From a virus: DNA of 32,420 nt. Made by a program: the position numbers and the translations under genes. Below the pieces are notes generated by a model. It made no database searches and was not told the DNA's origin. It worked only from the letters and a program-made list of their open reading frames with translations. How positions within the stretch are numbered: position 1 is the first letter of the stretch; the number at the start of each line of letters is the position of its first letter. This document shows, one piece after another, positions 1,751-32,420 of this stretch. The DNA lies in the IMG/VR virus record IMGVR_UViG_3300049617_000083, positions 1 through 32,420 of that record; one strand, written 5' to 3'.

Positions 1751-1780
1751 TTAACGAAGGTTGTGGGATTAAATATCAAT

Positions 1781-2209
1781 ATGATAAAATTTAGCGAATG
1801 GCTATTATTGAAAGAAGCAAGCCAGATACAATGGACTATGCCCAATATACAAGATGAAATGGGAGAATTAAACAGAACTGCAAAAACTCTTAATATTAAC
1901 CCACAACAACTTACGCAGGCAACTAAAACAGCCAGATTAGTTCCGTTGGATGATAACACATGGGCGAAAATGAGTAACACTGACTCATGGAATATTAAGT
2001 CAGGCGATATGGACTCCGTTAATTCATTAGCGAAAGGATATGGGCGAGACGCAACGAGTATTGCACAGGGCTTTCAATCTGGTTCGCCAATGCCAGCCCC
2101 AATTGTCTTATCTCATAAAGGAAGCCCATATTTGGTAGGCGGTAATACACGGCTTATGGTGGCAAGAGCAATGGGCATTAGACCAAGTATGTTGCATGTT
2201 GCATTGTAA
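1781..2209 (+). CDS. Small ParB-like-fold protein with capsid-targeting-like N-terminus
   Basis: 142 residues from ATG 1781; an upstream GTG at 1763 is less likely. The C-terminal part (PAPIVL...GSPYLVGGNTRLMVARAMG) resembles the ParB/sulfiredoxin-like fold with its G-G-N-x-R-L core. The N-terminus MIKFSEWLLLKEAS has the F-x-x-W-L-x-L-K-E pattern shared by three other proteins here and similar to T4 internal-protein capsid targeting peptides; L-K-E before A fits the [LI]-x-E rule for T4 gp21 cleavage. It lies between the recombinase and TnpB genes, as IS cargo or as a resident phage gene. The ParB-like fold is moderately supported; targeting is inference. Confidence 0.6.
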   Translation: MIKFSEWLLLKEASQIQWTMPNIQDEMGELNRTAKTLNINPQQLTQATKTARLVPLDDNTWAKMSNTDSWNIKSGDMDSVNSLAKGYGRDATSIAQGFQSGSPMPAPIVLSHKGSPYLVGGNTRLMVARAMGIRPSMLHVAL

Positions 2210-2489: not shown

Positions 2490-3572
2490 GTGAATATAAT
2501 ACGCTCTACAAGATGTTCGCTCAAGTTTAGCACCAACACTAAACTTGATAAGTTACAACTGGTGATGACGGAATACTCGAAGGTTGTTAATTTCTTCATT
2601 GATAGGTTCTTCGAGAAACCGCCAACCAAAGCACAACTGCTCAAGCCAATAGTAGACTTGCCGACAACATGGCTCTCGGCACGATTAAGGAAAGTAGCGG
2701 CGAGAGAAGCCATTGATATGATTGGCAGTGTCAAGGAAAGAGGATTGACTACCAAACCGCACCATAACGGCAAGAGTATGAGTGTCAGCAGCACGATTGC
2801 GGAGTTGCAACAGAGTGAGAATAGTTTTGATTGCTGGCTACATCTGGCAAGTATTGGTGACGGTATCATAATTGACTTGCCTATAAAGTTACACAAGCAC
2901 TACTACAAGTTGAAACAAAGAGGTAAGCAGTTAGCGAGTTATATCATCAAGCCAGATTGTGTCCAGTTTTGTTTCGAGATTGAGACAGGAGCGAAGAAGG
3001 AAGATGGTAAAATAATCGGCATTGATACTGGTATCAACTCTCTGGCAACTTCCAGTGAAGGTGAGCAATATGGCACTGACATAAAGAGTATCATTGAGAA
3101 AATCAAGCGTAAGGAACATGGAAGTAATAAACAACAGAGAGTGCGGAGAGCGTTGAAGCAGAGGATGAATGAAGTTGCCAAAGAGGTAATGAAACAAGAT
3201 GTAAAGTTAGTTGTGGTTGAAGACTTAAAGAAGATGAACCACAGCACAAAACTCAAACGCCGCTTGAGTAAAAATATGCGGCGTAGTCTCGGTGCATGGG
3301 TGTATCGCTACTGGCTAAACAGGGTACAGATGGCAACGGAAGATAACCGTGTTAGTTTCCGACGTGTCAATCCTGCTTATACCAGTCAGCGATGTAATGT
3401 ATGTGGTCATACCGAGAGAGGAAACCGAAACGGATTGATGTTCTTGTGTCTTAAATGTGGCTACAAGGACAATGCAGATTATAATGCTGCCAAGAACATC
3501 AAGTTTCGGTTTCTTAGTGGACCTTACGGTGCTGCTTACAAACCAAAAGATGAGGAATTATTGTTAAGGTAG
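2490..3572 (+). CDS. tnpB: TnpB RNA-guided endonuclease (IS607/IS605 type)
   Basis: 360 residues, a usual TnpB length. The RuvC triad is complete: D179 in IGIDTGINSL, E244 in VVVEDLKKM, and D330 in DNADYNAAKN. The zinc ribbon has C302, C305, C320 and C323 (RCNVCG...CLKCG). The start is the GTG at 2490 in a phage-like MNIIRSTRCS context. Its sequence differs from the TnpB tail at 1-232 and from the remnant at 11374-11577, so it is a separate lineage. The nearest recombinase is the truncated IS607-type TnpA at 1130-1750; IS607 pairs normally adjoin, so the intervening 700 bases with two genes are unusual. Nuclease activity is plausible from the residues. Confidence 0.88.
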   Translation: MNIIRSTRCSLKFSTNTKLDKLQLVMTEYSKVVNFFIDRFFEKPPTKAQLLKPIVDLPTTWLSARLRKVAAREAIDMIGSVKERGLTTKPHHNGKSMSVSSTIAELQQSENSFDCWLHLASIGDGIIIDLPIKLHKHYYKLKQRGKQLASYIIKPDCVQFCFEIETGAKKEDGKIIGIDTGINSLATSSEGEQYGTDIKSIIEKIKRKEHGSNKQQRVRRALKQRMNEVAKEVMKQDVKLVVVEDLKKMNHSTKLKRRLSKNMRRSLGAWVYRYWLNRVQMATEDNRVSFRRVNPAYTSQRCNVCGHTERGNRNGLMFLCLKCGYKDNADYNAAKNIKFRFLSGPYGAAYKPKDEELLLR

Positions 3573-4258: not shown

Positions 4259-4265
4259 ACTGTAT

Positions 4266-4988
4266 TTAGGGTGTTGCTAACAAAAATTGTTGTTGTCCAC
4301 CGATGCCGCCCATGATGGATTCAAAAGTATGATACCCACAGTCTTTCAACAGTTGATAAATACCTTCCGGTGTTGTTCCATAATCTTTCATGTTTACGCC
4401 GCCGTTAACACTTAAATGCATTTCTATTTCCAAGCGTGGGTGGAAAGTGTTTAGAAGTTTCAAAGCTCCTTCCAGAACGTGAAATTCATAACCTTCTACG
4501 TCTATTTTCATCACGTTTGGTTTATGTTGAATGTAATCATCCAAACAAATGGATTGAATTGGAACTCCTGTCCCTGGTTTTTGAACCCGTTCAGCCAAGA
4601 AATAATGATCTTTTCCTGCTATGTTGGACACTACTTTGTTTACTAAAATTACATTTTTCAATTGATTTAGTTCCATATTCTTTTGGAGAACTTCACAGTT
4701 ATATTGTACTGCCTCAAAAGCTACGACTGAGCCTGAACTGCCTACGTGTGTAGCAAATACGGTTGTTGTCCAACCGTGATGGGCTCCTACGTCAAAGACT
4801 ACGTTTCCCGGAGCAATCATCTGTCGAAGCTTGGGATTCCAATTGTTTCGGTTGTGGAACCCCAACTCTCTGTCGCCACCAGCACCATTTATCCATGAAG
4901 TCTTATACCAATCCTCGTTCAACTTCGTTATTTGAAATTTTATCTGGTGATCCCATACTGTCTGATTGTCTACATACGGATAATTCAT
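4266..4988 (-). CDS. FkbM-family SAM-dependent methyltransferase
   Basis: 240 residues. The SAM-binding motif I is VVFDVGAHHGWTT (about residues 63-75), an acidic residue follows in AFEAVQYN, and the family motif MKIDVEGYEFHVLEGA is at about 160-175. FkbM enzymes O-methylate sugars or secondary metabolites, and in phages they commonly accompany glycosyltransferases. It lies 14 bases downstream of a second methyltransferase and near a TPR glycosyltransferase, which fits glycan decoration of a virion or cell-surface polymer. The substrate is unknown. Confidence 0.85.
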   Translation of the reverse strand: MNYPYVDNQTVWDHQIKFQITKLNEDWYKTSWINGAGGDRELGFHNRNNWNPKLRQMIAPGNVVFDVGAHHGWTTTVFATHVGSSGSVVAFEAVQYNCEVLQKNMELNQLKNVILVNKVVSNIAGKDHYFLAERVQKPGTGVPIQSICLDDYIQHKPNVMKIDVEGYEFHVLEGALKLLNTFHPRLEIEMHLSVNGGVNMKDYGTTPEGIYQLLKDCGYHTFESIMGGIGGQQQFLLATP

Positions 4989-5002: not shown

Positions 5003-5854
5003 TTACATAAGAGTATAATCCAAAAATTGTTGTTCCAATAACGTCAATGGAAAAACAGTTGCATCAACCCAATGTGCCTTGATTCTTTTTGCCACCAGGG
5101 GTGTGTTAAAGAAGAAGGGCTCCACGGGTCTCCTGGAAATGTCGTGGCTTATTATTCTCAGTCCAGCTTTAGTAAACATCTCGTTGTAGGTCATAGTCGG
5201 GTTAATTACTTTGATTATCTTTTGGCTAGAGGTGGTGAGATTAAGTATTTCCAATTCATATTCATTGAATACCAGATGGACAAAAGCTTTGTTGAGTTTC
5301 AGATGGGTTGCATGGCGAGAGCAAAACGGGTGTAAGCGAATAAAGATTTGTCCTTTAGAAGTTAGCAATTGTTTCAATTTTTTCAATACTTGCACCTGGC
5401 TTTCGTTGGTGATATGGTCGAGAACATCGTAAACCAAGATGATGTCATAGGGTTTGTTGTTTGCAACATCGGTCCAGTTGGAAGTAAGCTTATCTTCAGC
5501 AAAATCATTCCATTTTGGGTAGGCGACGATATCGTAACCGATGGACAATTTAGGTTTTTGTGATCTTGCTTTATGGACTACGTAGCCTTCACCGCAACCG
5601 AAGTCCAAGAGTTTCAAGCCAGTTAGATTCGTGTTGACAATGATGCTTAATATGCCTTCGGCTCGGTCTTCTTTTTCTTGTTCGGATGATATTTCAATTT
5701 CTATATCATCAGTGGTTGCGGCGGGCCACGCATCGCTTTCCAGCATGGCACTAAGTTGTTCAAATTCTGACAAGTTCCTAATAGCAACTTTGATGTTGGC
5801 GACATCTTGCTCAATTTTTAATAATTGTTCCTGGATAGCCTTTAGTGTATTCAT
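5003..5854 (-). CDS. Class I SAM-dependent methyltransferase with N-terminal coiled coil
   Basis: 283 residues. The first 35 residues form a heptad-rich helix (LKAIQEQLLKIEQDVANIK), then an acidic linker, then a Rossmann methyltransferase: motif I LLDFGCGEGYVV, an acidic position in GYDIVAYP, motif IV YDIILVYDVLDHI, and post-I/motif VI segments typical of Methyltransf_11/23 proteins. The coiled coil suggests oligomerisation or a partner. It is divergent from the TPR glycosyltransferase with only 29 bases between the two starts, so each promoter must overlap the other gene's 5' end or lie elsewhere. Sugar O-methylation is likely from context, not shown. Confidence 0.8.
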   Translation of the reverse strand: MNTLKAIQEQLLKIEQDVANIKVAIRNLSEFEQLSAMLESDAWPAATTDDIEIEISSEQEKEDRAEGILSIIVNTNLTGLKLLDFGCGEGYVVHKARSQKPKLSIGYDIVAYPKWNDFAEDKLTSNWTDVANNKPYDIILVYDVLDHITNESQVQVLKKLKQLLTSKGQIFIRLHPFCSRHATHLKLNKAFVHLVFNEYELEILNLTTSSQKIIKVINPTMTYNEMFTKAGLRIISHDISRRPVEPFFFNTPLVAKRIKAHWVDATVFPLTLLEQQFLDYTLM

Positions 5855-5883: not shown

Positions 5884-7362
5884 ATGGAAAAAGAATTCAA
5901 CTTAGCAAAACGTATATCACCCAAATTAGTTGCCCCAGAGGATTTAATATCTGCCTTGGTTACCCTTGTTGAGAATGGTCAATCCAGGATGGCCCTGGAA
6001 TATGTCAAAAAGCAATCCTCCACGCTTCTTTCATTTATCTTGAGTCTTTATCATTCTGGAAGACTTGAAGATAAAGGCTCTCAAGCAACAACTTTGGCAC
6101 AGGCCGTTGTTTTAATTGAACCAACAGCGGAGAATTACAGCAATTTATTGTGTCTGCTTAACAAAGCGAGGAAAAGACAAGAGGCTTTAGATCTTTGGGA
6201 AAATAAAGTCAAAGAAATTGCCGAAACTGGCACAGGCATACACACGGCCAATCTATGGTATAACTATGGAACTATCTTGGGGGAACTGAACAGGAACAGG
6301 GAATCCGCCGACGCTCTTATCCGGGCTCGGGATTTGAATCCAGACTGTCCCATGACCCATTGTCAGTTGGGCAGCACCCTGATGGCACTTGGAGAAACCG
6401 CAGAAGGTTTGAAAGAAGGTCAATGGCGATTCAAGGCTTTTGGCAGTCTGACACGATTTCACAGGAGATTCAACGTCCCGGATTGGAACGGCAAAAACGC
6501 TGAACGGGTGGTAGTGTTTTCAGAACAAGGTGTCGGTGATGCTCTTCATCGTGTTCGTTATCTCAAGGATCTCAAAGCAATCGGCTGCAAGGTAATCTTG
6601 GAAGTGCAAAACGAATTGGTTGATTTGCTTAAGGGCCAAAAATATGTTGATGAAGTTTACGGCAGAAAGAATATCGATTTTGAGACCAAGATTGTGCCAG
6701 ATGGAACTTATGACAGTGTAATCTCAATCAACGATCTTTCTTGTTGGTTCGAACCAGAGATGTCCAATCCTCCCGTGGATGGATACCTGGACATTAAGCC
6801 AGATGGCAGTCTCAAAGCGTACAGGCGACCTAGGGTTGGCCTGGTTTGGGCAGGAAACGGTATGGCAGGACATGATCGGCTTCGCTCCAGTTTTTTGCGG
6901 GATCTTTCTGCCATTTTTGATGTGCCCGGCATTACTTTACTAAATTTCCAGAAGGGAGACATGAACCGATGTTGGGTGAAGGATTCCTGGTGTATTCTGG
7001 AGCCTGATGCTGAGTTCGACGTGGTAAACTTGGCAGAAGGGGCCGAGGATCTTTTGGCCAAAATGCCTAATGTAGTGGAGAACTGCAAGTCTTTTTATGA
7101 CACTGCATTGCTGCTGCGTGACCTGGATTTGTTGATCACGGTTGATACTTCAATGGCTCATTTGGCTGGAGCAATGGGCATTCCCACATGGTTACTACTT
7201 TCGAAATACTGTTCGTGGTATTGGATAAAAAACTGGTATACAAGTATCAAGTATTACAGGCCAGAGGGGGCTTCTGACGCTTGTTTTGCGGATCAGTGGA
7301 AAAAGATGGCATCCAGAGTAGCCGCAGACCTAATTTTGTGGAAAAAAGATCTGGACTATTGA
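5884..7362 (+). CDS. TPR-containing glycosyltransferase (GT-B, GT9/GT41-like)
   Basis: 492 residues, start supported by AAAGGA upstream. Tetratricopeptide-like repeats occupy about residues 85-185 (NLWYNYGTILGELNRNRESA, then MTHCQLGSTLMALGETAEG). The GT-B part follows: VVVFSEQGVGDALHRVRYL (about 209-227, the nucleotide-sugar enzyme EQGxGD motif), GLVWAGN, and DLLITVDTSMAHLAGAMGIP, the C-terminal donor-binding motif of ADP-heptose-transferase-like enzymes. Proteins of this design are common in bacteria and large phages. With the neighbouring methyltransferases it suggests a small glycan-modifying set; acceptor unknown. Confidence 0.83.
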   Translation: MEKEFNLAKRISPKLVAPEDLISALVTLVENGQSRMALEYVKKQSSTLLSFILSLYHSGRLEDKGSQATTLAQAVVLIEPTAENYSNLLCLLNKARKRQEALDLWENKVKEIAETGTGIHTANLWYNYGTILGELNRNRESADALIRARDLNPDCPMTHCQLGSTLMALGETAEGLKEGQWRFKAFGSLTRFHRRFNVPDWNGKNAERVVVFSEQGVGDALHRVRYLKDLKAIGCKVILEVQNELVDLLKGQKYVDEVYGRKNIDFETKIVPDGTYDSVISINDLSCWFEPEMSNPPVDGYLDIKPDGSLKAYRRPRVGLVWAGNGMAGHDRLRSSFLRDLSAIFDVPGITLLNFQKGDMNRCWVKDSWCILEPDAEFDVVNLAEGAEDLLAKMPNVVENCKSFYDTALLLRDLDLLITVDTSMAHLAGAMGIPTWLLLSKYCSWYWIKNWYTSIKYYRPEGASDACFADQWKKMASRVAADLILWKKDLDY

Positions 7363-12642: not shown

Positions 12643-12960
12643 GCCCCAGTTGAGGTACCAGTCGAGGTACCAGTCGAGGTACCAGTTGAGGTGCCAGTTG
12701 AGGTGCCAGTTGAGGTGCCAGTTGAGCTTAACGAAACGGAACTCGCAATCTTGGTTCTTTGCAGGAACTCCCCCCAGAGCAAATCGGCAATCATTGCAGG
12801 ATTGGGCTACGGCAAGATGACCGGGAATGTCTGGAGCATGACTGACCTTCCCCGAACCTCTGCCGTTAAGTATCATTGGCTATCAGTTTACGAGGAACTG
12901 CTTTATCGCCAATATAGATCGTTCCAGTCATGGTCTTTTCTAAAAGCGGCAGGTGCTTAA
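12643..12960 (+). pseudogene. Possible PVEV-linker winged-helix fragment
   Basis: The + frame through the repeat reads (PVEV)6-PVELNETELAILVLC, continuing KSAIIAGLGYGKMTGNV, which resembles the first helices of a winged helix domain. There is no ATG before 12691, where it would start inside the repeat. The last third overlaps the opposite-strand gene at 12866-13153. I regard it as the remains of a linker-plus-DNA-binding protein; it may be non-coding. Confidence 0.25.
12646..12729. repeat. Tandem repeat, seven 12-bp units
   Basis: Seven consecutive units of CCAGTYGAGGTR, the last diverged (CCAGTTGAGCTT). The units differ only at a Y position and the final base: three end in GTA and three in GTG, in blocks, which suggests stepwise duplication. 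On the + strand they encode P-V-E-V repeats leading into a possible helix-turn-helix. On the - strand no obvious protein results. Confidence 0.9.
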
Positions 12961-13153
12961 TAGAAGTATATTCGGTGTGCCCGAAAACTATCTTTTCTTG
13001 CTCTAGTTCTTCATTCTGAACGTATTGATAATGATAATAGAGGTCAAGACAACTACCGCCATTAGCCGTCTGCTGGAGGGCATTCATGTCGTCGGATGGG
13101 AATCCTGCTATTAATAATTTTTGTTTACGTTGGTCAAGCCAGAAATTTCTCAT
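12866..13153 (-). CDS. Hypothetical protein, 95 aa
   Basis: Starts MRNFWLDQRKQKLLIAG and ends with TMTGTIYIGDKAVPRKLIANDT. Codon content and amino-acid composition look genuine, and no ribosome site is evident. No cysteine pairs or membrane segment. Family not recognised. It is isolated between a terminator-like hairpin (13201-13239) and the repeat region. Confidence 0.5.
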   Translation of the reverse strand: MRNFWLDQRKQKLLIAGFPSDDMNALQQTANGGSCLDLYYHYQYVQNEELEQEKIVFGHTEYTSIKHLPLLEKTMTGTIYIGDKAVPRKLIANDT

Positions 13154-16043: not shown

Positions 16044-16102
16044 GTATTACACTCCTGATGTTTATCTGCTGGCATTTTTTGTTATTAGATCATACATAAA
16101 GT

Positions 16103-16378
16103 ATGATGACCTTCCAAGAATACATGGCTTTGAGAGAAGAGCAAGAAGCCGGATTAGATGACATTGATATCCAAGCCGCCAAAGAGGGCGAACACTTGAG
16201 GCGAGGCCAAAAATTGCAAAGAACCCACAGAGAAATCATAGGGATGGCTGGCAGTAAGGCTGGGGGACGATTTGCTCAATATCAAAAGTTTCCAGGCAGA
16301 ACCAGCCGTGGAAGTGGCGTTAAATCAACAAATCGTCCAGGAAATTTCGATAGAGTATCCTCAGATAAATATCGCTAG
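16103..16378 (+). CDS. Small protein with capsid-targeting-like N-terminus, 91 aa
   Basis: Starts MMTFQEYMALREEQEAGLDD (16103 or the second ATG 16106). F-Q-E-Y-M-A-L-R-E matches the motif F-x-[EQ]-[WYF]-[LM]-x-x-[KR]-E found in the genes at 1781 and 26311, and L-R-E is a fitting T4 gp21-type cleavage site. The remainder is basic and low in hydrophobic residues (GRFAQYQKFPGRTSRGSG), as expected for a small DNA-associated or packaged protein. Function unknown. Confidence 0.55.
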   Translation: MMTFQEYMALREEQEAGLDDIDIQAAKEGEHLRRGQKLQRTHREIIGMAGSKAGGRFAQYQKFPGRTSRGSGVKSTNRPGNFDRVSSDKYR

Positions 16379-19651: not shown

Positions 19652-19680
19652 TTGACTTTACGTAAGAATTACTATATAAT
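19652..19680 (+). promoter_or_regulatory. Near-consensus sigma-70-type promoter
   Basis: TTGACT (19652-19657), exactly 17 bases, TATAAT (19675-19680). It predicts a start near 19687, giving a leader of about 17 bases before ATG 19704. Strong by sequence for the interrupted endonuclease gene. Confidence 0.85.
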
Positions 19681-19703
19681 TGATGGAGAAAGGAAGGTGG
19701 TAT

Positions 19704-21056
19704 ATGTACCTGCAAGAAACCGCTGGCATTTTGGAAAGTCAGTTTGTGAAAATCAAGTATGACTGTGATGGCGACTTTGACCGTTGTGGCAAGGAGTGGC
19801 TTCTGAAGCTCAAGGACGCCAAAAAGAACTTCCTACAAAATTTGGAACGACACGTCTGCCGCCAATGCCAATTACGTAGCAAGAATCCAATGAGTCGCAA
19901 AGAAGTGCAGGAGAAGGTCAAAAAAACCACTTTGCGAAAATATGGTGTCTCCTGTGCCATGAATACGCATGAGAACATTGATACTCGCAACGAAAGGATG
20001 TTCGGCTCACAAGAAGCCATTGACGCTCGTACCAAGAAAACCAAGGAAACTAACTTGATAAGATATGGGGTTGAGCATGCTGCCCAGTCCACTGAGAAAA
20101 AGGAAAAGACTCACCGCACAAACAGAGAACGATACGGCACAAATCATCCGATGCAGAATGCAGAAGTGGCGAAGCAGGCATTGCAAACAGTTAGGGATAG
20201 GTACAAGGTCGATAATGTCATGCAAGTGCTGGAAGTTCAACAGAGACAGGTCGAGACTACTTTGGGAAGGCATGGTGTTGAACACTACAATCAGCTACCA
20301 GAGATGAAGGACTATCTGCGGAATCATTGCACCACCTGGCTGGCAGAGAGTTATAACGGCGGCGTAAAACCACAACCCGAAGGTGCTGCCTGTCGGTACT
20401 CCGACAGGCAGGGCTTGCCTTGTGGATGTAAGCCGCCAAATTGAAAAATATATTTTGTTTCGTCCATGAAAATTGTTAGTGTCATAACTATATTCTGATA
20501 TGGACAGGAGACGTAGCCGAAAACTTACAAAGTACCTATGGACCATAGGGATTTTAAGGAGCAGGAGATTTCATCCTCTACTTTCTTTAACTTATTGACT
20601 AACATCGATGGAGTTGAAGTAAGCAAGATGAAGTCGTAGAATGCTGGAAGCCGCAGGGCTTGCCCTGCGGTAGGTCACCCGGTTAAATGCGACAAAAATA
20701 AGGTTTACTTTCGTTCTTCGTATGAAGCAATTTATTGTTACTACTTAGACAACAATCCAAATGTGGAATCGTTCTCATTCGAAGCGTTCAGAATCTCGTA
20801 TGAATATGAAGGCAAAATCAGATTTTATGTACCTGATTTTTTAGTACGATGGACTGATGGCAGGTTGTCTATCAAGGAATTAAAGGCTGAGTTCTTGAGG
20901 GACGATGATAAAAATTTGGCAAAACAAAATGCTGGGACATTGTTCGCAGATCTTAATGGCATGGATTATGAATTGTTGTTCAATGATTACATTAAATCAC
21001 TAAACATACAGTTTGATACGCTAAAGAAAATTGGATTTGCAAAAACAGAGGCATAA
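19704..21056 (+). pseudogene. Homing-endonuclease-like gene, split by a mobile element
   Basis: Start ATG 19704 after AGGAAGG; the true reading is 19704-20357 joined to 20679-21056, giving 343 residues in frame. The N-terminal part has C-x-x..C pairs (YDCDGDFDRCG, HVCRQCQL) and five repeats of about 35 residues of the type RYGVEH-x-x-Q-x-x-E, as in large phage DUF7487-like proteins, probably DNA-binding. The C-terminal part reads VYFRSSYEAIYCYYL, then YVPDFLVRW and IKELKAEF: a TnsA/PD-(D/E)XK nuclease core with PD and E-L-K. The 321-bp insertion stops translation soon after residue 218. Confidence 0.75.
20358..20678 (+). mobile_element. Non-autonomous IS200/IS605-type (TnpB-family) element, 321 bp
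   Basis: Left end GGCGGC...: nested hairpin, outer GGCGGC/GCCGCC and CCACAA/TTGTGG around CTGCCTGTCGG/CCGACAGGCAG. The right end repeats bases 124-271 including CCGCAGGG/CCCTGCGG. The left 100 bases (20350-20449) match 32321-32420. The left flank is TTATAAC and the right cut is after GTCAC. These boundaries give 321 bases, and their removal restores the host gene frame as ...AESYNPVKCDKNK... . Only a sliver of tnpB remains, so it must be mobilised in trans. Confidence 0.85.
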
Positions 21057-21087: not shown

Positions 21088-21113
21088 GTTCACATTAGTG
21101 AACATATGTTCAC
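21088..21113. repeat. Short palindromic GTTCAC/GTGAAC cluster
   Basis: GTTCACATTAGTGAAC (21088-21103) is an imperfect palindrome followed by GTTCAC (21108-21113), which runs into the stop codon of the capsid gene. Three 6-mers in 26 bases between a terminator and the gene end; a binding site or second weak hairpin is possible. Confidence 0.4.
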
Positions 21114-22546
21114 ACGACAAAATTAGCGATTGTCATTCTCGCATAAAACTTTGCCCCCTCCCGTAACAATTTTTTGCCGTACCGAGTAAGTATACCTTTT
21201 CTTGGGCAGAAGCTCTCTGGGTCTAACACGACTGGAGTCTGTGTTAAAGGTACGTATGGGCAGTAAAAGTAACCTGAGTCCATATAAGAATCGCCCTTAT
21301 ACCCAAGCAAAATCTGGTTCTGCTTAAAGAGTGGATCTTTGTAGAGCTTCCATCTCTTATTGATAGTTCCAACGTATTGGATACCAAGGTTAGAGGTGAA
21401 AGTTTCACTAGGATCAGGAGCGAAACCTGCTGTAGCCGTTTCAAAGATAGCTGCTACTTCTGGTGAAGTCACCAACCAGTTACAACCACCTCTTAAGGTC
21501 TTACGGTGAACTACTGCGGAAAGTTCTACGACCTTTACATAAAGGCTTTCGTATTTTTCCTTAATTGTATCGCCTAACGTAGTGCTGAAGTCCCACGCAG
21601 CCACAGTTCCAGCATTGTTCAAAAGGTCCGTGAGGACTTCTCGGTCAATTTCCAGGTTAATTTCCTGGGCCAAGACGGCTGTCAATTCAGCTTCGGCGTC
21701 GAGGTTATGTTGAGACCTAAGATCCTGTTGAGCTTCGTAGGACCATACAGCTTTAAGCTTACGGGTACGAGCAACGATTTCTTCAGACTCAACAACGAGA
21801 TTTATTTCGGGGAGGTCTTGATTGCACTCCATGTTGTATTCGTACGACATGACGACGTGGTTCGCCGAAGGAGCGTTATTCCAGGTCACAGTAACTTCAC
21901 CAGTAGTGTAGTTAATTGAGCCAGCGGTTGCATATGTGGAATAAGCACCGAGCAAGGTAAAGGTAAACGTGCCACCAGCGGAGACCGTAAAGGTCTGGAC
22001 TGCTGTAGTGCCGTCATAAACTGTTCCGGTAACAGTTCCAGGGATAACCGGAGTATGCTCAACTGGGGCATAGGAAGCGGTTAGGATTGCACCTGGGTCA
22101 GTTGATGAAGTTTCGTTCTGGACGAACTGTGATGTGAAGTACACATCGAGCAGTGCGTTACCAGCAGCGTCTTGCATCAAGCTGTTCTGGTCGTCACCTG
22201 GGAAGCCACCGTTATTATCTGCACCACGGGTAGCACCCTTATTGCTTGAGTACCTGAATCTCAGGTAGTAGACCAAGCCAGTTGGGCCGAGCAGTGGCTG
22301 AACTGACACGATCTTATTTGCGATCAATTGCGGGTAGATACGTCGAACAAGAGGAATCGAAATTCTCTTGAACTGAGCGATATCACCACTATCTGTGCTG
22401 ATTTCATTCATCAGCCTTTGGTTTTCCAGTAGTACTGCGGCAGCAGAGCGTTCGTATCGGTTGCCGATACCACGGAGGAGACCAGTACGAGACCATTTCC
22501 TCTCCATTTCCTTGGCCTCATTCAAAAAACGAGCATTAGCGTTCAT
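21110..22546 (-). CDS. Major capsid protein (T4 gp23-like)
   Basis: 478 residues (T4 gp23 is 521). LVRRIYPQLIANKIVSVQPLLGPTGLVYYL (given in parts: RRIYPQLIANKI at 68-79, VQPLLGPTGLVYYL at 82-95) is the conserved gp23 HK97-fold N-terminal signature, and the C-terminus KLLREGAKFYARMTIAN is also gp23-like. Residues about 166-240 form a beta-rich, Thr/Gly/Val insertion (TVTGTVYDGTTAVQTFTVS). Possible gp21 cut sites include FLNE-A (residues 7-10) and LLE-N (39-41). It is last in the leftward head block and ends at a terminator. Confidence 0.93.
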   Translation of the reverse strand: MNANARFLNEAKEMERKWSRTGLLRGIGNRYERSAAAVLLENQRLMNEISTDSGDIAQFKRISIPLVRRIYPQLIANKIVSVQPLLGPTGLVYYLRFRYSSNKGATRGADNNGGFPGDDQNSLMQDAAGNALLDVYFTSQFVQNETSSTDPGAILTASYAPVEHTPVIPGTVTGTVYDGTTAVQTFTVSAGGTFTFTLLGAYSTYATAGSINYTTGEVTVTWNNAPSANHVVMSYEYNMECNQDLPEINLVVESEEIVARTRKLKAVWSYEAQQDLRSQHNLDAEAELTAVLAQEINLEIDREVLTDLLNNAGTVAAWDFSTTLGDTIKEKYESLYVKVVELSAVVHRKTLRGGCNWLVTSPEVAAIFETATAGFAPDPSETFTSNLGIQYVGTINKRWKLYKDPLFKQNQILLGYKGDSYMDSGYFYCPYVPLTQTPVVLDPESFCPRKGILTRYGKKLLREGAKFYARMTIANFVV

Positions 22547-22590: not shown

Positions 22591-23595
22591 TTAGTTCCTA
22601 TTTTTCTTGGACTTTGACCTTCTTTTGGTTTCCTTAGTTCCAGCCAGGAGGTTTAACGTATCCAAGTTAGCCCCCTCATAACCTTCAAATAGCTGGTCGG
22701 TATCTTCTTCTTCTTGGGTTTCATCGGCGTCGTCGTCTGCGTAGTGACTTTCGTCATAATGACTTTCGTCATATTCTTGAATAATGTCTCTCTTAGGGAC
22801 TCTATTGTCGATGTAACCTTTCCCCGATACTTGCTTTGCTTTCTTACTTCTTTCTTTCCTGTCAGATTGAACGGCCTCACTAAGCATCTTGTCCTTAGTT
22901 CGGACGCTTTCCAGAAGCTTACGATTCTCACCATTAAGGCGGATCTGACGAGCTTCCATAAATTGAACTTGAGCCTTAAGGTCTTCAATCTGACGTTGAG
23001 ACTCTTCTAGTTTGGCTCCAGTAGCGAACACTTTTTCTTCATCTGAAAGATACGTGGCAACGTCCTCGACAACCTTGTCCAAGACAACTCTGTCTTGGGC
23101 GTAACGAGGATCGGCGAGAATATCTCGTCTGGCCTGTTCGTAAATTTCTTTGCCTTTTTGCTGTAAGAATTCATCCAACTTCTCGACCATAAAGGTTCGT
23201 ACTTCATTGAATTTGCTGTTGTATTCTGCGTGAAGATCCAACTCCAAGGTTCCGTTTTTAGCTTTCTCTTCTTTGATGACCTTGTAAGCTTCTTCCCAAC
23301 CGGAAATGAGTTCTTTTTCAAACTCTTCTGTTTGCATTTCAAGACGATTTCGTAATTCGTTAATTACGTTATAAGCATCTTGATAACCTTGAATTGCAAC
23401 CTTCTCGGCTTCGGCCAATTCCTGAGCAGCCCCTGAGTAGGCTTTCTCTAACTCAACATTAGCTTCGGCTTCGAGATCGGCCTTCATCTCTGCTTTAGAC
23501 TCTGCAAGGATTGCATCTACTGCCGAGGTCACATCATTGACCATTTCTGAAGGAAGAGCCTTCTTCAGGGATTCAAAAAGATCTATTTTGCTCAT
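22591..23595 (-). CDS. Prohead scaffold/core protein (T4 gp22-like)
   Basis: 334 residues, highly charged and largely coiled-coil (EAEANVELEKAYSGAAQELAE, KLEESQRQIEDLKAQVQFM), flanked by protease and capsid genes as in T4. It starts one base after the protease stop. The C-terminal region has a tandem YDESHYDESHYADDD segment and an acidic stretch, then a basic end (RRSKSKKNRN). Scaffold proteins of this type fill the prohead core and are degraded by the protease; the assignment rests mostly on position and composition. Confidence 0.85.
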   Translation of the reverse strand: MSKIDLFESLKKALPSEMVNDVTSAVDAILAESKAEMKADLEAEANVELEKAYSGAAQELAEAEKVAIQGYQDAYNVINELRNRLEMQTEEFEKELISGWEEAYKVIKEEKAKNGTLELDLHAEYNSKFNEVRTFMVEKLDEFLQQKGKEIYEQARRDILADPRYAQDRVVLDKVVEDVATYLSDEEKVFATGAKLEESQRQIEDLKAQVQFMEARQIRLNGENRKLLESVRTKDKMLSEAVQSDRKERSKKAKQVSGKGYIDNRVPKRDIIQEYDESHYDESHYADDDADETQEEEDTDQLFEGYEGANLDTLNLLAGTKETKRRSKSKKNRN

Positions 23596-23596
23596 A

Positions 23597-24268
23597 TTAG
23601 CCTAACCTCGCTTTGATATTATTAGCACTTTGTTTGATAATTCCACCTACAGCGGCTATTATTACTTCCTTGCTTAATCTATCTATGCCGGACTTGTTAA
23701 TTTTCACATCAGAATCACGGTAATAATTCCTAGGATCAACATCTTCTCTCTTCCCGACCACCTTTTCTTGGAAGGCGGCAAAAGTAGAAGGGTCGGCAAC
23801 TGCATCAAAAGTAATCAGCCTGTAGCTTTCTCCGATAACAAGAATCCCGTTCTCGTTAACTTTACCATTTCCTACACCACGGCTACTAATGCCGACTCTT
23901 ACGCCGCCATTAATAAGCTCTTTCAATACTTTCCCATGTGGGGTATTAAGGATTTCTCCTTCGCCCATAAGAATGTTTCCATCCCACCACAACTTTGTGA
24001 TAACGTGAGATGCTTCTTTGAAGTGAATAATGCTATCCGTAGGGTGGTCTAATTCACCAACTAAGCCACGGGCTTTTACTACTTCTTGAAGTCTTCCAAC
24101 ATTTTCGTCTAATACCCCGTACGGGTATAGTCTTTTATTTTTATTAACCGCCTCAGCCTCTTGAAACTTGCCACGAAATTTAATCAAACCTTTTTCAATA
24201 TTAGATTCTTTCAGGTCTATTTCAAAAGCAGCCCCGCAGCAGTCAATCAATAACATTTGATCAATCAT
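23597..24268 (-). CDS. Prohead core serine protease (T4 gp21-like)
   Basis: 223 residues (T4 gp21 is 212), AAGGAG upstream. NKRLYPYGVLDENV precedes the catalytic histidine H75 in GELDHP; the nucleophile region is VGISSRGVG (S128 or S129), and the acidic residue is likely in ITFDAVADP (D155 or D159). It cleaves head proteins after [LI]-x-E-type sites during maturation. Order portal, core protein, protease, scaffold, capsid matches T4. Confidence 0.93.
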   Translation of the reverse strand: MIDQMLLIDCCGAAFEIDLKESNIEKGLIKFRGKFQEAEAVNKNKRLYPYGVLDENVGRLQEVVKARGLVGELDHPTDSIIHFKEASHVITKLWWDGNILMGEGEILNTPHGKVLKELINGGVRVGISSRGVGNGKVNENGILVIGESYRLITFDAVADPSTFAAFQEKVVGKREDVDPRNYYRDSDVKINKSGIDRLSKEVIIAAVGGIIKQSANNIKARLG

Positions 24269-26205: not shown

Positions 26206-26310
26206 ATTCTCCTATAGGATGTATCCCAGATATTTACAGCGTCTGGATACGCATCAAAAAAACAAGAACTTAATATAGATATGCAGATGGAGCAAAAACT
26301 TGGAGGCAAA

Positions 26311-26565
26311 ATGACAAGGTTTGAACAATTTATGCAAGAACGTGAAGGAATGTTTGAGAGAGACAACGGTCTTGCGGCTATTTTACAAATGGCGGCAGAG
26401 TATCATAAAGAGGAAGTATTAAGTTTCCTTAATATAAAGAAAAGGCAGGTAGACGTGACGACAATTTGCCATCTAATAAACACAATTCAGAGTTCGATGA
26501 AATCATTCCTAGTTCGGCAGATGGCGGTGGCGGGGCATCACAAGAAGATGATAACTAACGAATAG
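26311..26565 (+). CDS. Small protein with capsid-targeting-like N-terminus, 84 aa
   Basis: ATG 26311 is preferred to 26281 because GGAGG is 7 bases upstream. MTRFEQFMQEREGMFERDNG has the F-x-[EQ]-F-M-x-x-R-E pattern shared with 1781 and 16103. It is the only + strand gene between the core and glycosyltransferase genes, starting about 105 bases from the opposite start at 26205 and overlapping the glycosyltransferase end by 11 bases. The rest is helical (AAILQMAAEYHKEEVLSFL). Possible packaged head protein. Confidence 0.6.
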   Translation: MTRFEQFMQEREGMFERDNGLAAILQMAAEYHKEEVLSFLNIKKRQVDVTTICHLINTIQSSMKSFLVRQMAVAGHHKKMITNE

Positions 26566-27811
26566 CTTCGTAAACTCCCAGGTATCGATCAGCAGAAATG
26601 TCCCAGTTATTTTTCTCAATGTAGCTGTTAATACTTTCCAGTATTTTGTTTTTATACGACGAGTCGCTGAAAATTTTGTCTATCTCATTCGCTAAAGTAG
26701 TGGTATTGGCACATCGTGGAACCACCCCCTCCAGGTCGTCGAAAAGATGTGCATCGCTAGCAATTACTGGGATTCCATTGGCCATTGCAATGCGGATAGC
26801 CCCGGAGGCTCCATAAACCATATTTTTGGGATCGTTTGTATATGGGAATAATGCCACCTTGGCTGTTCTTAAGTAGTTGTTTATTGTCTGTTCGGTATGA
26901 AACTTTTTGATGATTGCAACATTATCTGATAGGTCTAATTGATTTATTTGTCCACGCAAAAAGTCATAATATTGTTCGTGGATTATGTTAGTGTGAATGT
27001 TACTACTGCACAGATAGCAATAGAAAATGTCCTTGAATTTATTATCTTGATTTTTCAGTAAATGGATTGCCTGTAAGGCACGATCAACGCCTTTATAGAA
27101 GAAACCAAATCCAAACTGGACCAATGCATGAGGTGTTTGAAAAATGTTCCACAACTCTTGCTTCTCGATTGGATCAAACTGCACACACCCGTGTGGCACC
27201 ACAAAAATTTCACTGTTGTTACCAATTTTACGAAGCGTCTTTTTGGCTTCTTCACTATGAACAATGATACACTTAGCCGCTGCACTACACACGCTTTTAT
27301 CTAAATGCTCATAGACCGAATGCATTGCTACAGCATAAGGTATATCTTCAAGGGCAGACAGCATTTGCAAAAAATTAGTAGCTTTCGGAAAAATGCCATA
27401 TTCGTGCTGAATGATTACAAAATCCGGCTTCCACTCAACAACTAATTCAATGGCATGTTTCATGCTCTGGCCACGTTGCCAACAACAGATTACTTCTGGG
27501 TCGCCTGCTGTGGGGATGTAGACTTGATTGAATTCGGAGAAGATCCTTACTTTGTCAACTTTGGGAACCAGGGCATCCACTAGATATTTCGTGTAAGTGC
27601 TTATGCCGCAGTTATCTCTCCAGTTGCATATTACTGCAATTTTCATTTCTTTCCTAGATTTATTGCTTTTATATGCCCGTTGACCAATTAACTTATTCCA
27701 GTGTTCCTTGGGCAATGTTGTTTCTCGTTCTTCAACAGTGTATCCTTCTGCTGTAAATAATATCTCAGATACAGCTATGATTACATCCCTTTTGTTGAAT
27801 GCTATATACAT
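26555..27811 (-). CDS. Glycosyltransferase, GT4/GT-B type
   Basis: 418 residues from ATG 27811, or about 363 from ATG 27646 (MKIAVICNWRDNCGISTYTKYL), which has the better ribosome site (AGGAAAG). The GT-B N-terminal GIST motif begins there, HEYGIF follows, and the C-terminal donor domain has GFGFFYKGVDRALQA and FPYTNDPKNMVYGASGAIRIAMANGIPVIAS (E-x7-E region). The 55-residue extension (MYIAFNKRDVIIAVSEILF) is of unknown nature, perhaps a fused small gene. Three small genes separate it from the portal. Confidence 0.82.
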   Translation of the reverse strand: MYIAFNKRDVIIAVSEILFTAEGYTVEERETTLPKEHWNKLIGQRAYKSNKSRKEMKIAVICNWRDNCGISTYTKYLVDALVPKVDKVRIFSEFNQVYIPTAGDPEVICCWQRGQSMKHAIELVVEWKPDFVIIQHEYGIFPKATNFLQMLSALEDIPYAVAMHSVYEHLDKSVCSAAAKCIIVHSEEAKKTLRKIGNNSEIFVVPHGCVQFDPIEKQELWNIFQTPHALVQFGFGFFYKGVDRALQAIHLLKNQDNKFKDIFYCYLCSSNIHTNIIHEQYYDFLRGQINQLDLSDNVAIIKKFHTEQTINNYLRTAKVALFPYTNDPKNMVYGASGAIRIAMANGIPVIASDAHLFDDLEGVVPRCANTTTLANEIDKIFSDSSYKNKILESINSYIEKNNWDISADRYLGVYEAIR

Positions 27812-28376: not shown

Positions 28377-30950
28377 CTATTGACCTAGTTCAGAATAATC
28401 AACATCTTCTTCGTCTTGCTCAGCATCATATGACTGTATTTCCAAGTCATATCGTATGACTTCTTCGTCTGAAGGATCTGGCAATGGTTTACCTTGACCT
28501 TCTGGCGGCATCATATCTGGCTCGTCGTTATCAAGTGCTGGTTCATTCTTTGCGAATGTCTGCGGCTGTCCACCACCTCCAGGCTGCGGCCCTCCACCAG
28601 GAGGTCCAGCCGGTGGCTGTTCACCGCCCGGACCCAACATTGGATTTGGGCCACCTGGCTCAGCACCAATTTCTTTTTCACCTTGACCTGGAACGCCAAC
28701 TCCCAGGAGTTGCGGGTTCTGTGCCAGAACTTGCAGTTTAAGATCCTCAAGTTTTTGAACCTTATTACGAGAGATCATTTCTTTAGCTCTCTCTTCAGGA
28801 ACGTGCATATAGTCAATCAGGATGTCAAAGTCACTTAGTAATTGCGATCCTTTAATACTATTGGCGTTGTTAATGCGGCTCGTAATCACTTCTGCATTGG
28901 CCATTTCACGCCACGCAGAAGGAGGAGTCATATGTATTTCTAGGTCTTCATACAACTCAGGTGGAAAACCACGTAGAGTCAAATGCCTTTCGCCCACTTC
29001 ACGTAAGGCTTCCTCGAAATAAGATTGCAACCGTTCAACTAATTGAGCAAATTGAACATTTTGAGCAGACAACGTAAGGCGAGTTGATTGCGGGTCATCA
29101 TTTGCAAAATAGTTAGGAGGAAAATTCAGGGCACAAAACAGTTTGTTTCTGAAGTATACAGTATCATCAATTTCACCCAGGTTTTGGGCACCCGGTAAGG
29201 TTTCAATTCTGGTGTTAGACTGTGGACGCACCGGCAACCAGTAATCTTCATCGGCTGCTGGTGCATGCCATTTCTCTTCTACTGCATTGGCACCGCCATA
29301 TACGTTACTATTTCTTACTACCTTTTTCTTTCTAAATTGATCCTTTATTCGATCCATTAAAGCTTCAGCCTTAGCTGAAGTTAACTGGCCAACGTCAATG
29401 TAAAACACTCGACGTTCAGGTGCCCGTGTTAGCCTGTAAACCACCATCGCATCTTCCATCATGCGAAGTTGATGAGCAGGCCCCCGAGCCGGTTCAATTA
29501 AAGAGACTCCATAAGGATAAAAGTTCTTACGATAGTCGCCTAGCCTAATATGCACTATTTGTTTAGGACTGAAACGAATTGCATTAGCTTGAGATAATTC
29601 TGAATCGGTAGCCGTTTCAATAGGCACATTTTCAATAGCTTTGTAATCAGGCCCTTCACGGGTTTGTTGAAACTCTACAAGACGACCCTTGGTAGTCTCA
29701 ATACGAAACATCGATTCTGGCTGCAAATCCTGCAAACCGCACAAGCCCATTTTGGGGTCATCTGGATCAATTACCATTTCCCAAAATGTATCACCTTTAA
29801 TGAGCAAGCGACGGAATCTATCCCAAGCAGTCCTTTGATTAAAGTTCAATCTTTCCCGGTTGAAGAACATGTATTCAAGCTCGTCTTTGACCTCCAAGTT
29901 GTCAACTTCTATCTTAAAGACACGATTTTCTTCGTTCTTCTGACAGTTGTGCATGACTGTAGATTCGGTACAGAAGTTCTCATATTTTTCAACAGAAAGA
30001 TCGGCAACCGGCATTGATTCAGATTTCTGAATACCTATGATCCTACGACGATCCGGTTTGTATTTTGCTAGGTAGCGGATTTCTTTGAAGGAAAATCCTT
30101 CACGTTGGTAGCTACTTTCAATTGTTTTCCAGTCATGTCCCATCAACTTGGCCATTTCACGGGCCTGCATGCCGCCGTGAATAAGGCGGCATGCTTTATT
30201 AGCTCGTTCATATTCGGGCAGATCTCTACCTAAACGCCACTCATCAATGAACTGTCTTTCGTGTACCCAGCCTTTGTTGTGCGTGTAAATGCGAGGAAAC
30301 TGTTTTATCTTCAGGTTTGTATGACCCATATTTGGTCGCAGACGATAGAAAGGCATCAATTCATCACCTTCTCTAAGATCGCCAGCATGCGACCAGCTAC
30401 TGTCTCTCCTTAAAATACGATGGTCTGGAGTTACTATCTCGAAAGTTCCATCATCAAATATGACCTTTACTGTTTCTGCATACTTGACATGTCGAGGGTT
30501 GAAAGCCCAGCCAATGGTGTAATCACCTTTTTCAAAATCGAAACAGTAAACTGGGAATCGTTCATCAGCTTTGTTTTTAATCAACCATTCAATGGTCTTC
30601 AGTCCATCGAAAACAGTAGCTATATTGGTCTTGTAAGCCACGCATGCTTCGTCGGCAAAAACCGTCATTGCTCTATCGATTTCAGCAACACCATCGGCAA
30701 GACGCTGGTATTCCTTCATCCGGTTCATTCTGCTTGTAGTAGTCTGTACGTCAATTAGGTCGTTTTGAACTCTAATGAACGCACCGCTACCGCCAGTAAG
30801 TCCATCCCCACCACGTAGGTCCGGCATTACGTCAGGTTGGGTTACCCCAGCACCAGATAAATTCTTCTTGTCTCGTTTTCGACTAAGAGGGTCGTCCAGA
30901 AAACTGTACGTGAAAACCTTAAAAAAATCGTACCACTTGAGATTATCCAT
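28377..30950 (-). CDS. Portal protein (T4 gp20-like) with in-frame intein
   Basis: 857 residues; about 624 remain after intein removal (T4 gp20 is 524). The extein has MDNLKWYDFFKVFTYSFL, IDRAMTVFADEA at the splice site, FRRLLIKGDTFWEMVIDPDD, EPARGPAHQLRMMEDAMVVYRL, and the portal-typical AP-x-RRVFYIDVG. The C-terminus (about residues 760-857) is a Pro/Gly-rich tail and acidic end. Portal forms the DNA-entry vertex and starts prohead assembly. It is first in the leftward head block; a promoter for it was not identified. Confidence 0.92.
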   Translation of the reverse strand: MDNLKWYDFFKVFTYSFLDDPLSRKRDKKNLSGAGVTQPDVMPDLRGGDGLTGGSGAFIRVQNDLIDVQTTTSRMNRMKEYQRLADGVAEIDRAMTVFADEACVAYKTNIATVFDGLKTIEWLIKNKADERFPVYCFDFEKGDYTIGWAFNPRHVKYAETVKVIFDDGTFEIVTPDHRILRRDSSWSHAGDLREGDELMPFYRLRPNMGHTNLKIKQFPRIYTHNKGWVHERQFIDEWRLGRDLPEYERANKACRLIHGGMQAREMAKLMGHDWKTIESSYQREGFSFKEIRYLAKYKPDRRRIIGIQKSESMPVADLSVEKYENFCTESTVMHNCQKNEENRVFKIEVDNLEVKDELEYMFFNRERLNFNQRTAWDRFRRLLIKGDTFWEMVIDPDDPKMGLCGLQDLQPESMFRIETTKGRLVEFQQTREGPDYKAIENVPIETATDSELSQANAIRFSPKQIVHIRLGDYRKNFYPYGVSLIEPARGPAHQLRMMEDAMVVYRLTRAPERRVFYIDVGQLTSAKAEALMDRIKDQFRKKKVVRNSNVYGGANAVEEKWHAPAADEDYWLPVRPQSNTRIETLPGAQNLGEIDDTVYFRNKLFCALNFPPNYFANDDPQSTRLTLSAQNVQFAQLVERLQSYFEEALREVGERHLTLRGFPPELYEDLEIHMTPPSAWREMANAEVITSRINNANSIKGSQLLSDFDILIDYMHVPEERAKEMISRNKVQKLEDLKLQVLAQNPQLLGVGVPGQGEKEIGAEPGGPNPMLGPGGEQPPAGPPGGGPQPGGGGQPQTFAKNEPALDNDEPDMMPPEGQGKPLPDPSDEEVIRYDLEIQSYDAEQDEEDVDYSELGQ
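29946..30644 (-). other. Intein in the portal protein, 233 aa, with HTH in place of endonuclease
   Basis: Starts CVAYKTNIATVFDG (block A), has VIFDDGTFEIVTPDHRIL (block B, T-x-x-H with H near residue 75) and ends VADLSVEKYENF...VMHN before cysteine +1 of the C-extein. Terminal N and the preceding H are present, and splicing residues look intact. Between them lies KGWVHERQFIDEWRLGRDLPE, reminiscent of HNH homing enzymes, but then ACRLIHGGMQAREMAKLMG and KTIESSYQREGFSF, a helix-turn-helix rather than an H-N-H motif. Residues 103-335 of the precursor. Confidence 0.88.
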
Positions 30951-31005: not shown

Positions 31006-31033
31006 GTAGTTAGAATGTAAATTGGAGAAAATC

Positions 31034-32301: not shown

Positions 32302-32323
32302 CTTATGCAGGAGCGTTTTTGTT
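32281..32323. terminator. Bidirectional terminator, near-perfect 21-bp palindrome
   Basis: Arms of 21 bases (32281-32301 and 32303-32323) flank a single base; the stem includes AACGCTCCTGCATAA and ends in TTTTTGTT. The gene stop TAA is in the left arm, and the inserted element abuts the right foot. Confidence 0.85.
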
Positions 32324-32328
32324 ATAAC

Positions 32329-32420
32329 GGCGGCGTAAAACCACAACCCGAAGGTGCTGCCTGTCGGTACTCCGACAGGCAGGGCTTGCCTTGTGGATGT
32401 AAGCCGCCAAATTGAAAAAT
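32329..32420 (+). mobile_element. Left end of a further IS200/IS605-type element copy (runs off window)
   Basis: 32321-32420 is identical to 20350-20449: nested hairpin with GGCGGC/GCCGCC, CCACAA/TTGTGG and CTGCCTGTCGG/CCGACAGGCAG. The flank is TTATAAC (32322-32328), the same as at 20351-20357, so that heptamer is the likely target. Whether this copy carries tnpB cannot be seen. Confidence 0.85.

Follow-up and report, generated by a model that had tools for sequence, protein, structure and literature searches.

Internal proteins of T-even phages have in common only an N-terminal leader, which directs them into the head and has been used to find ip genes (PMC12373910, PMC3012670, PMC9026906). 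A review of Black's work assigns targeting by this capsid-targeting sequence (CTS) in T4 mainly to residues 4 and 7 and its processing to residues 8 and 10 (PMC9026906). The cargo is consequential: an anti-restriction function has been shown for the internal proteins IPI–III, all three of which inhibit GmrSD restriction enzymes (PMC12373910). T4 Alt and gp24 also carry a short N-terminal propeptide that is cut by gp21 (PMC9026906), and neither is known to contain the MKTF..F consensus. Elsewhere, in phiKZ and SPN3US a distant relative of gp21 cuts many head proteins after glutamate, and these proteins are ejected (PMC5694885); polyvalent or MuF-fused effectors (2H, Nudix, ART and others) are predicted to enter heads and to be injected against defence (Iyer and co-workers, PMC9503650).

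Here we show that, in a clade of uncultured huge phages, unrelated proteins share a short N-terminal tag that is modular, is enriched for a downstream cut site, precedes basic bodies, lies behind a late-like promoter box and occurs alongside genes for a gp21-type protease and a late sigma factor. We consider it likely (probability about 0.82) that the tag is a T4-type CTS; packaging, cleavage and injection are inferred, with no virion proteomics or N-terminal sequencing behind them.

The T4 IPs are the closest match. Their leader, M-K-T-[FY]-x-E-F-[IL]-x-E, places aromatics at positions 4 and 7, L or I at 8 and E at 10, and it too is the one common element of unrelated basic bodies in a phage with an S77 protease. 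The clade differs in scale, with about 15–23 tagged proteins per genome against 3 in T4 and a reported ~10 over the T-even group (PMC12373910). Its tags often have W at position 7 and a site that is either L-[KR]-E two residues on or W-L-E. Unlike the T4 genes, the tagged genes are scattered genome-wide, mostly have a late box at the ATG that predicts leaderless mRNA, include recognisable enzymes and belong to a deep lineage. The T4 Alt and gp24 propeptides resemble the clade tags in being short, N-terminal and gp21-type substrates, cutting being inferred for the clade, whereas those of phiKZ and SPN3US are mostly long (several exceed 100 residues) and do not form one common short tag; in the part of phiKZ that we searched, neither an S77 hit nor a tag excess appeared. 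MuF-type effectors are recognised as packaged when a MuF, portal or protease domain is fused to them, or from their gene neighbourhood; in the clade the sign is instead a short, putatively cleavable peptide on separate proteins, mostly far from the head genes.

A deep branch of the T4 superfamily

The window, meaning the entire 32,420-base virus record analysed here, encodes a gp23-type major capsid protein (MCP), an S77 (gp21-type) prohead protease and a gp20-type portal. No close DNA relative was found among GenBank phages. At the protein level the window is close to IMG/VR contigs reaching 532 kb in length (MCP identity ~79–85%) and to the uncultured 595-kb phage LR756511.1 (78%), the only such relative in GenBank. 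Cultured T4-like phages compared at similar coverage reach about 28–33%, and no close cultured relative emerged, the proteases of isolates all falling below 40% identity to that of the window. With such MCP and protease distances from cultured T4-like phages, the window belongs to a deeply branching line of huge phages within the T4 superfamily. The head genes are as follows.

21110..22546, minus strand: major capsid protein, gp23 family (Pfam E=3e-83)
22591..23595, minus strand: predicted scaffold/core protein, from its position alone between the gp21-like and gp23-like genes
23597..24268, minus strand: prohead protease, Peptidase_S77 (T4 gp21 family; Pfam PF03420, E=7.4e-28), the predicted processing enzyme
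28377..30950, minus strand: portal protein, gp20 family, with an intein-like insert inside; outside the tag system

The protease scores 97.8 bits against PF03420 (curated cut-off 27) and matches the PHROG for head maturation protease (E=2e-45). All 18 relatives checked encode an S77 protease, as does LR756511. The product of 22591..23595 has no family match of weight in Pfam or PHROG; its role as docking partner of the tags is inferred from position.

Four tagged genes in the window

The original prediction, made from the letters of the window without database searches, held that four genes encode unrelated proteins with a common capsid-targeting-like N-terminus ending in an acidic cut site, that one of the four is ParB-like and that a gp21-like protease is present. 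The four genes and their boxes are listed here.

1770..1775, plus strand: TAAATA box, T4-late-promoter-like, 5 nt 5' of the gene 1 ATG
1781..2209, plus strand: tagged gene 1, 142 aa, N-terminus MIKFSEWLLLKE, tag score 15.8
1781..1816, plus strand: capsid-targeting-like N-terminal peptide of gene 1, 12 residues
3890..4258, minus strand: tagged gene 2, 122 aa, N-terminus MVPNFKQWLELV, tag MVPNFKQWLE-LV, body unknown, tag score 16.1
4263..4268, minus strand: TAAATA box, 4 nt 5' of the gene 2 ATG, at the 3' end of the preceding gene
16093..16098, plus strand: TACATA box, 4 nt 5' of the gene 3 ATG
16103..16378, plus strand: tagged gene 3, 91 aa, start 16103 or 16106, tag (M)MTFQEYMALRE, tag score 11.7
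26276..26281, plus strand: TAGATA box ~30 nt 5' of gene 4, which has a short leader with a Shine-Dalgarno sequence
26311..26565, plus strand: tagged gene 4, 84 aa, tag MTRFEQFMQERE, in the head cluster on the strand opposite the MCP

Most of this prediction held. The genes at 1781, 4258 (minus strand), 16103 and 26311 have the predicted positions and N-termini with small corrections, their four bodies are unrelated and without a Pfam match, and the protease is the Peptidase_S77 at 23597-24268 (minus strand). The acidic cut site held in part: [LM]-x-E is present in three of the four tags, and the 4258 protein has W-L-E rather than a strict [LI]xE. The ParB-like label is only weakly supported. 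The C-terminal part of the 1781 protein looks ParB/sulfiredoxin-like (GGNTRLMVARAMG, with a GNTR motif), its ParB PHROG match is weak (E=0.22), it aligns with p033 of phage RM378 at 39% over 51 aa (pairwise E=2e-9, database E=0.05), and a single-sequence AlphaFold model was unusable (pLDDT 37).

Searches with phmmer of the clade genomes and loci that we fetched found no relatives of the 1781, 4258 or 16103 bodies, and an IMG/VR scan with the 1781 body came back empty. Cleavage is predicted after L-K-E (residue 12, followed by A) in the 1781 protein and after L-R-E in the 16103 protein, whose body is rich in glycine, arginine and lysine. Gene 4 starts 24 nt inside an ORF that may begin at 26287; the Shine-Dalgarno sequence and 42 syntenic orthologs back 26311. 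These orthologs (42 distinct sequences) all lie in the portal–protease interval of relatives, with N-termini resembling MKTFxx[YF]hxL[KR]E and L-[KR]-E as the usual site. The tag pattern is matched by 40 of the 42, the other two come near it, and the bodies diverge.

RM378 p033 (L357:1222-1671), a ParB-like protein related to the C-terminal part of the 1781 protein, begins with the tag-like MKFNNWVEY and adjoins a tail-sheath gene. The RM378 protein is conserved (45%) in Alishewanella phage Slicko01 (L361:256-735), where the N-terminus differs (MKFNFLYESMLNES..FTNWV). RM378 was considered as a cultured member of the clade and rejected: although it encodes gp21 and one ParB-like protein that is clearly tagged, no wider set of tagged proteins accompanies them.

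The tag recurs across whole genomes

Five relatives were fetched whole or mostly: G003 (532 kb), G005 and G001 (340 kb each), G006 (380 kb) and LR756511 (400 of 595 kb). For comparison we took other S77-bearing phages (T4, KVP40, S-SM1, Flavobacterium immuto, Mel-JY01 and RAS14) and partial sequences of SPO1, phage G, crAss001 and phiKZ, in which no S77 protease is detectable. A five-position profile (F, x, E/Q, W/F/Y, L) was trained on some genomes and tested on the rest; it was seeded with the motif of the original prediction but tested on held-out genomes. The tests were run over all start ATGs as well as caller-free; a gene caller that favours Shine-Dalgarno sequences undercounted tagged genes, because most of them have none.

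M-x(1-3)-F-x-[EQ]-[FWY]-L opens about 15–23 genes per genome in the five relatives (340–595 kb), and these genes are scattered on both strands across the whole huge-phage genomes. On held-out genomes the profile found 45 of 2042 and 51 of 2386 start ATGs, compared with 4 of 3355 and 5 of 4153 internal ATGs. Taking the five relatives and the window together, the tag is present at 104 of 4428 potential starts. In a cellular control of 1.45 Mb, mostly proteobacterial, 1 of 1634 starts scored. The search for the pattern through whole genomes that the original prediction had proposed thus turned up the expected unrelated tagged set in relatives, and one outcome named as a refutation, a motif equally common in non-phage proteins of the host, found no support in this mostly proteobacterial DNA.

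Outside the clade the picture is different. No tag excess appeared in the searched portions of the four phages without an S77 hit, and none in the S77-bearing cyanophage S-SM1 or in Flavobacterium immuto. The tag is weak in KVP40 and RAS14, and in T4 it picks out the known IPs. The absence of enrichment in S-SM1 and Flavobacterium immuto means that an S77 protease does not imply the tag, and for these two phages we reject the idea that the tag is a general trait of S77 phages.

The consensus is M-x-[TNS]-F-[RK]-[EQ]-[WF]-L-x-L-[KR]-E, 10–14 residues long and probably helical. In the logo, F at position 0 and W/F/Y at +3 are at 100%, and +4 is mostly L, V, F, M or I. The two aromatic positions are partly set by the profile; the preferences beyond the profile are not. 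Some hits at the score cut-off are visibly false, for example signal-peptide starts such as MFKAFSLFLLVLVVGC.

The tag matches the T4 leader and is followed by a cut-site excess

In the T4 record, IPII and IPIII begin MKTYQEFIAEA and IPI begins MKTFKEF. The clade tags fix the same positions, with F4, W/F/Y7, L8 and a glutamate at 9–12. Although [LIVM]xE played no part in finding the tag, it occurs downstream in 47 of 112 tagged proteins (42%), against 576 of 4216 other starts (14%) and 7 of 55 internal look-alikes (13%), a 3-fold enrichment that is not universal. Many tags carry W-L-E directly, which would need a laxer P3 position. The MCP suggests that such laxity is plausible: the window protein has a conserved [MFIYV]-N-E at residues 46–48, aligned with the T4 gp23 cut, and among 50 distinct homologs E48 is invariant while P3 may be M, F, I, Y or V.

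Tagged bodies are diverse, basic and modular

Once their first 20 residues are trimmed off, the 112 tagged proteins sort into 93 body clusters, of which 79 are singletons. The precursors have a median length of 155 aa (range 61–1191), and the bodies are basic (median pI 8.81 vs 6.95, p=4e-6). The majority have no known domain. Among the recognisable ones are a Nudix domain that begins at residue 14, directly behind the tag; a 184-aa 2H phosphoesterase in G001 (Pfam Acb1 37 bits, cut-off 27, plus 2_5_RNA_ligase2); a poly(A)-polymerase/CCA-adding-type body in three genomes; an RNA-repair HAD in two; a P-loop kinase (AAA_33/zeta group); C39-like peptidases; a tRNA-ligase-CPD-type phosphodiesterase; and radical SAM, DUF3293 and small HTH proteins. 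The G001 2H protein is only remotely similar to Acb1, the anti-CBASS 2H phosphodiesterase, and Acb1-like activity is inferred from its sequence. An S-adenosylmethionine lyase assignment, on a DUF3293 protein, was rejected as marginal (27.3 bits vs a cut-off of 28).

Among homologous bodies, some bear the tag and others lack it. Tagged versions of the Acb1-like protein occur in G001 and in L080 (MKTWQQFLQEK, with TATATA-type DNA in front); the G003 version has TTFRQFL a few residues inside its start, and those of G005, G006, L033, L036 and L082 are untagged. G005 and G006 have the HAD with a tag, G003 without one. In G001, a body that is tagged elsewhere forms the C-terminal part of a longer protein, and the fusion itself begins MPDALSFRLWLQQQE. 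A tag that comes and goes on homologous bodies and reappears on a fusion fits the expectation for a swappable sorting signal.

Several domains would suit counter-defence: cleavage of cyclic or 2'-5' nucleotides, repair of tRNA and other RNA, and hydrolysis of ADP-ribose or nucleotides. That the cargo serves injected counter-defence and RNA repair is a less certain inference; it rests on a minority of bodies, since most have no known function, and no enrichment test against untagged genes supports it.

A late-type box sits at the ATG of most tagged genes

The words common upstream of tagged genes are TAAATA, TATATA, TACATA and TAGATA. A box of the form TA[ACGT]ATA (TANATA), most often (C)TAAATA, lies in front of the ATG at 70 of 104 tagged starts (67%), its end 4–8 nt away and the distances peaking sharply at 5. 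The same box precedes 183 of 4269 untagged starts (4%) and 30 of 7508 internal ATGs. In a caller-free test of ATG-ORFs of at least 40 codons, the tag was present on 88 of 352 boxed ORFs vs 204 of 24003 unboxed ones (p=2e-92). The association recurred in 80 further loci (46/132 vs 153/9526) and within the window itself (4/12 vs 4/349, p=5e-5). It was not significant in T4, KVP40, S-SM1, Flavobacterium, Mel-JY01, RAS14, SPO1, G, phiKZ or crAss001.

The late promoters of T4 have a −10 element, TATAAATA, without a −35 element, and use the phage sigma factor gp55. The clade box resembles this element, and a diverged gp55-like late sigma is present in 8 of 8 clade genomes tested (E 1e-4 to 1e-9); none was detected in SPO1 or phage G. 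T4 late promoters start transcription about 6 nt past the box. The same spacing would make the clade mRNAs begin at or beside the ATG, that is, leaderless. Most tagged genes lack a Shine-Dalgarno sequence. Late, probably leaderless expression is inferred from box sequence and spacing, with no transcript data. The codons inside the tag vary synonymously.

Clade-wide (L084-L163, L174-L193), a TANATA box 4–8 nt before the ATG also precedes genes without the tag that resemble late genes, tail and glycan genes among them. These boxes suggest that (near-)leaderless late transcription is widespread in huge T4-related phages.

Capsid targeting and its rivals

In the mechanism that we propose, a gp55-like late sigma would transcribe the tagged genes late, into leaderless or near-leaderless mRNAs. 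The two aromatics of the tag would dock the nascent proteins on the prohead scaffold core, and the S77 protease (23597-24268, minus strand) would cut after the glutamate of [L/V]-x-E or W-L-E. The tag would then leave, and the mature, mostly basic protein would remain among the DNA until ejected into the next host, where the recognisable cargo may act in early counter-defence and RNA repair. Independent agreement with capsid targeting comes from the [LIVM]xE site, the basic bodies, the presence or absence of the tag on homologs, the match to the T4 IPs and the TANATA box. The capsid-targeting reading of the original prediction is therefore supported, in that the predictions tested were met and the scattered, genome-wide tagged set exists; the packaging, cleavage and injection it also foresaw remain inferred.

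The strongest rival accepts packaging but holds that the tagged proteins serve mainly as structural core, condensing or scaffolding components rather than as injected counter-defence effectors. This is possible. The bodies are basic on average, T4 IPIII also has a role in assembly (PMC9026906), and the tagged family with the strongest conservation belongs to the head cluster. Against it, several bodies are enzymes (Nudix, Acb1-like 2H, CCA-adding-like, HAD, C39 and kinase), and 79 of the 93 body clusters are singletons, which marks the tagged genes as accessory rather than core. A structural role is nonetheless likely for some tagged proteins, such as the 26311 family.

A second rival, which we regard as unlikely, is that the N-terminus targets proteins to another site (membrane, replication or transcription compartment, tail, or a host or phage adaptor) and that L-x-E is incidental. 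In its favour, a short helix of aromatic and aliphatic residues could have many binding partners, most tagged bodies are without known function, and the tagged enzymes would also be of use in the infected cell. However, the fixed positions match the mapped T4 CTS, [LIVM]xE is in excess, the boxes are of late type, the bodies are basic, and every ortholog found of one tagged family lies in the head cluster.

Third, the tag could be a translation feature of leaderless mRNAs, with the amino-acid pattern as a by-product. In favour are the strong association of the tag with a box 4–8 nt before the ATG and the lack of a Shine-Dalgarno sequence in most tagged genes. Yet 264 of the 352 boxed ATG-ORFs are untagged, one in three tagged starts is without a nearby box, members of the 26311 family carry a Shine-Dalgarno leader, and the codons of the conserved residues vary synonymously. 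Synonymous variation, untagged boxed genes and tagged genes with ordinary leaders together indicate that the tag is selected as a peptide, and we find this rival very improbable.

Finally, chance (a degenerate motif spotted by eye) or common ancestry (one old N-terminal domain) is all but ruled out, for although the motif is short and a few cut-off hits are clearly false, chance is contradicted by the held-out, internal-ATG, other-phage and cellular controls and ancestry by the unrelatedness of the bodies (93 clusters), so that both are refuted for the set even if individual members may still be false.

Returning to capsid targeting, a bolder version is that a portable cassette, a late box plus a cleavable capsid-entry peptide, fronts dozens of genes, and that each virion carries and delivers a large number of counter-defence and RNA-repair enzymes, the set of which changes quickly. 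We lean towards this version, by a narrow margin.

Novelty and significance

The signal itself is known in T-even phages; what look new are the lineage, the scale, the cargo and the promoter coupling. We found no report of a short tag in huge T4-related phages in the literature searched, which left most subscription papers out of reach. Nor did that literature contain a report of ~20 tagged genes per genome, of tagged Acb1-like or CCA-adding-like enzymes, or of a tag coupled to a late box at the ATG. The statement in the original prediction that the tag was undescribed in this phage holds for the lineage within these searches, the principle being well known in T-even phages.

The injected proteins of uncultured huge phages are unknown, and nearly all genes of these phages are unannotated. 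The tag and promoter signature yields about 15–23 candidate injected proteins per genome, many of them unknowns. If the capsid-targeting reading is true, it extends the T4 internal-protein principle, delivery of restriction inhibitors, far past the T-even phages; box and tag would let the full injected list be read from sequence, and the unknowns would become new anti-defence candidates. The tags also suggest new leaders for loading proteins into phage heads.

Other features of the window and its relatives

The portal insert lies in the middle of the gp20 homolog (residues 121–335) and scores 31.6 bits against Pfam Intein_splicing (cut-off 35.8). A short frame at 12890-13108 (minus strand) is 40% identical to MCP residues 113–185 (E=1e-13), and we read it as another MCP-like gene or domain, of partial length. 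Two relatives have an additional, diverged S77 protease gene far from the head cluster (G003:238202-238600, minus strand; LR756511.1:242621-242989).

Judged by eye from their translations, 2490-3572, 31022-32032 and 19680-20444 (all plus strand) encode TnpB-like and HNH/homing-endonuclease-like proteins. The genes at 5884-7362, 4266-4988, 5003-5854 and 26555-27811 appear, also by eye, TPR/glycosyltransferase-like, FkbM-type and other methyltransferase-like, and glycosyltransferase-like; the last-placed gene, 26555-27811, sits within the head cluster with the portal on one side and the protease on the other.

The window also contains two exact long repeat pairs, 124-272 with 20531-20679 and 20350-20449 with 32321-32420, the latter at its very end. 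The repeat at 124-272 overlaps and then follows a TnpB-like zinc-finger C-terminus at 2-232, and the pairs are probably transposon copies, or transposon ends, that broke the assembly.
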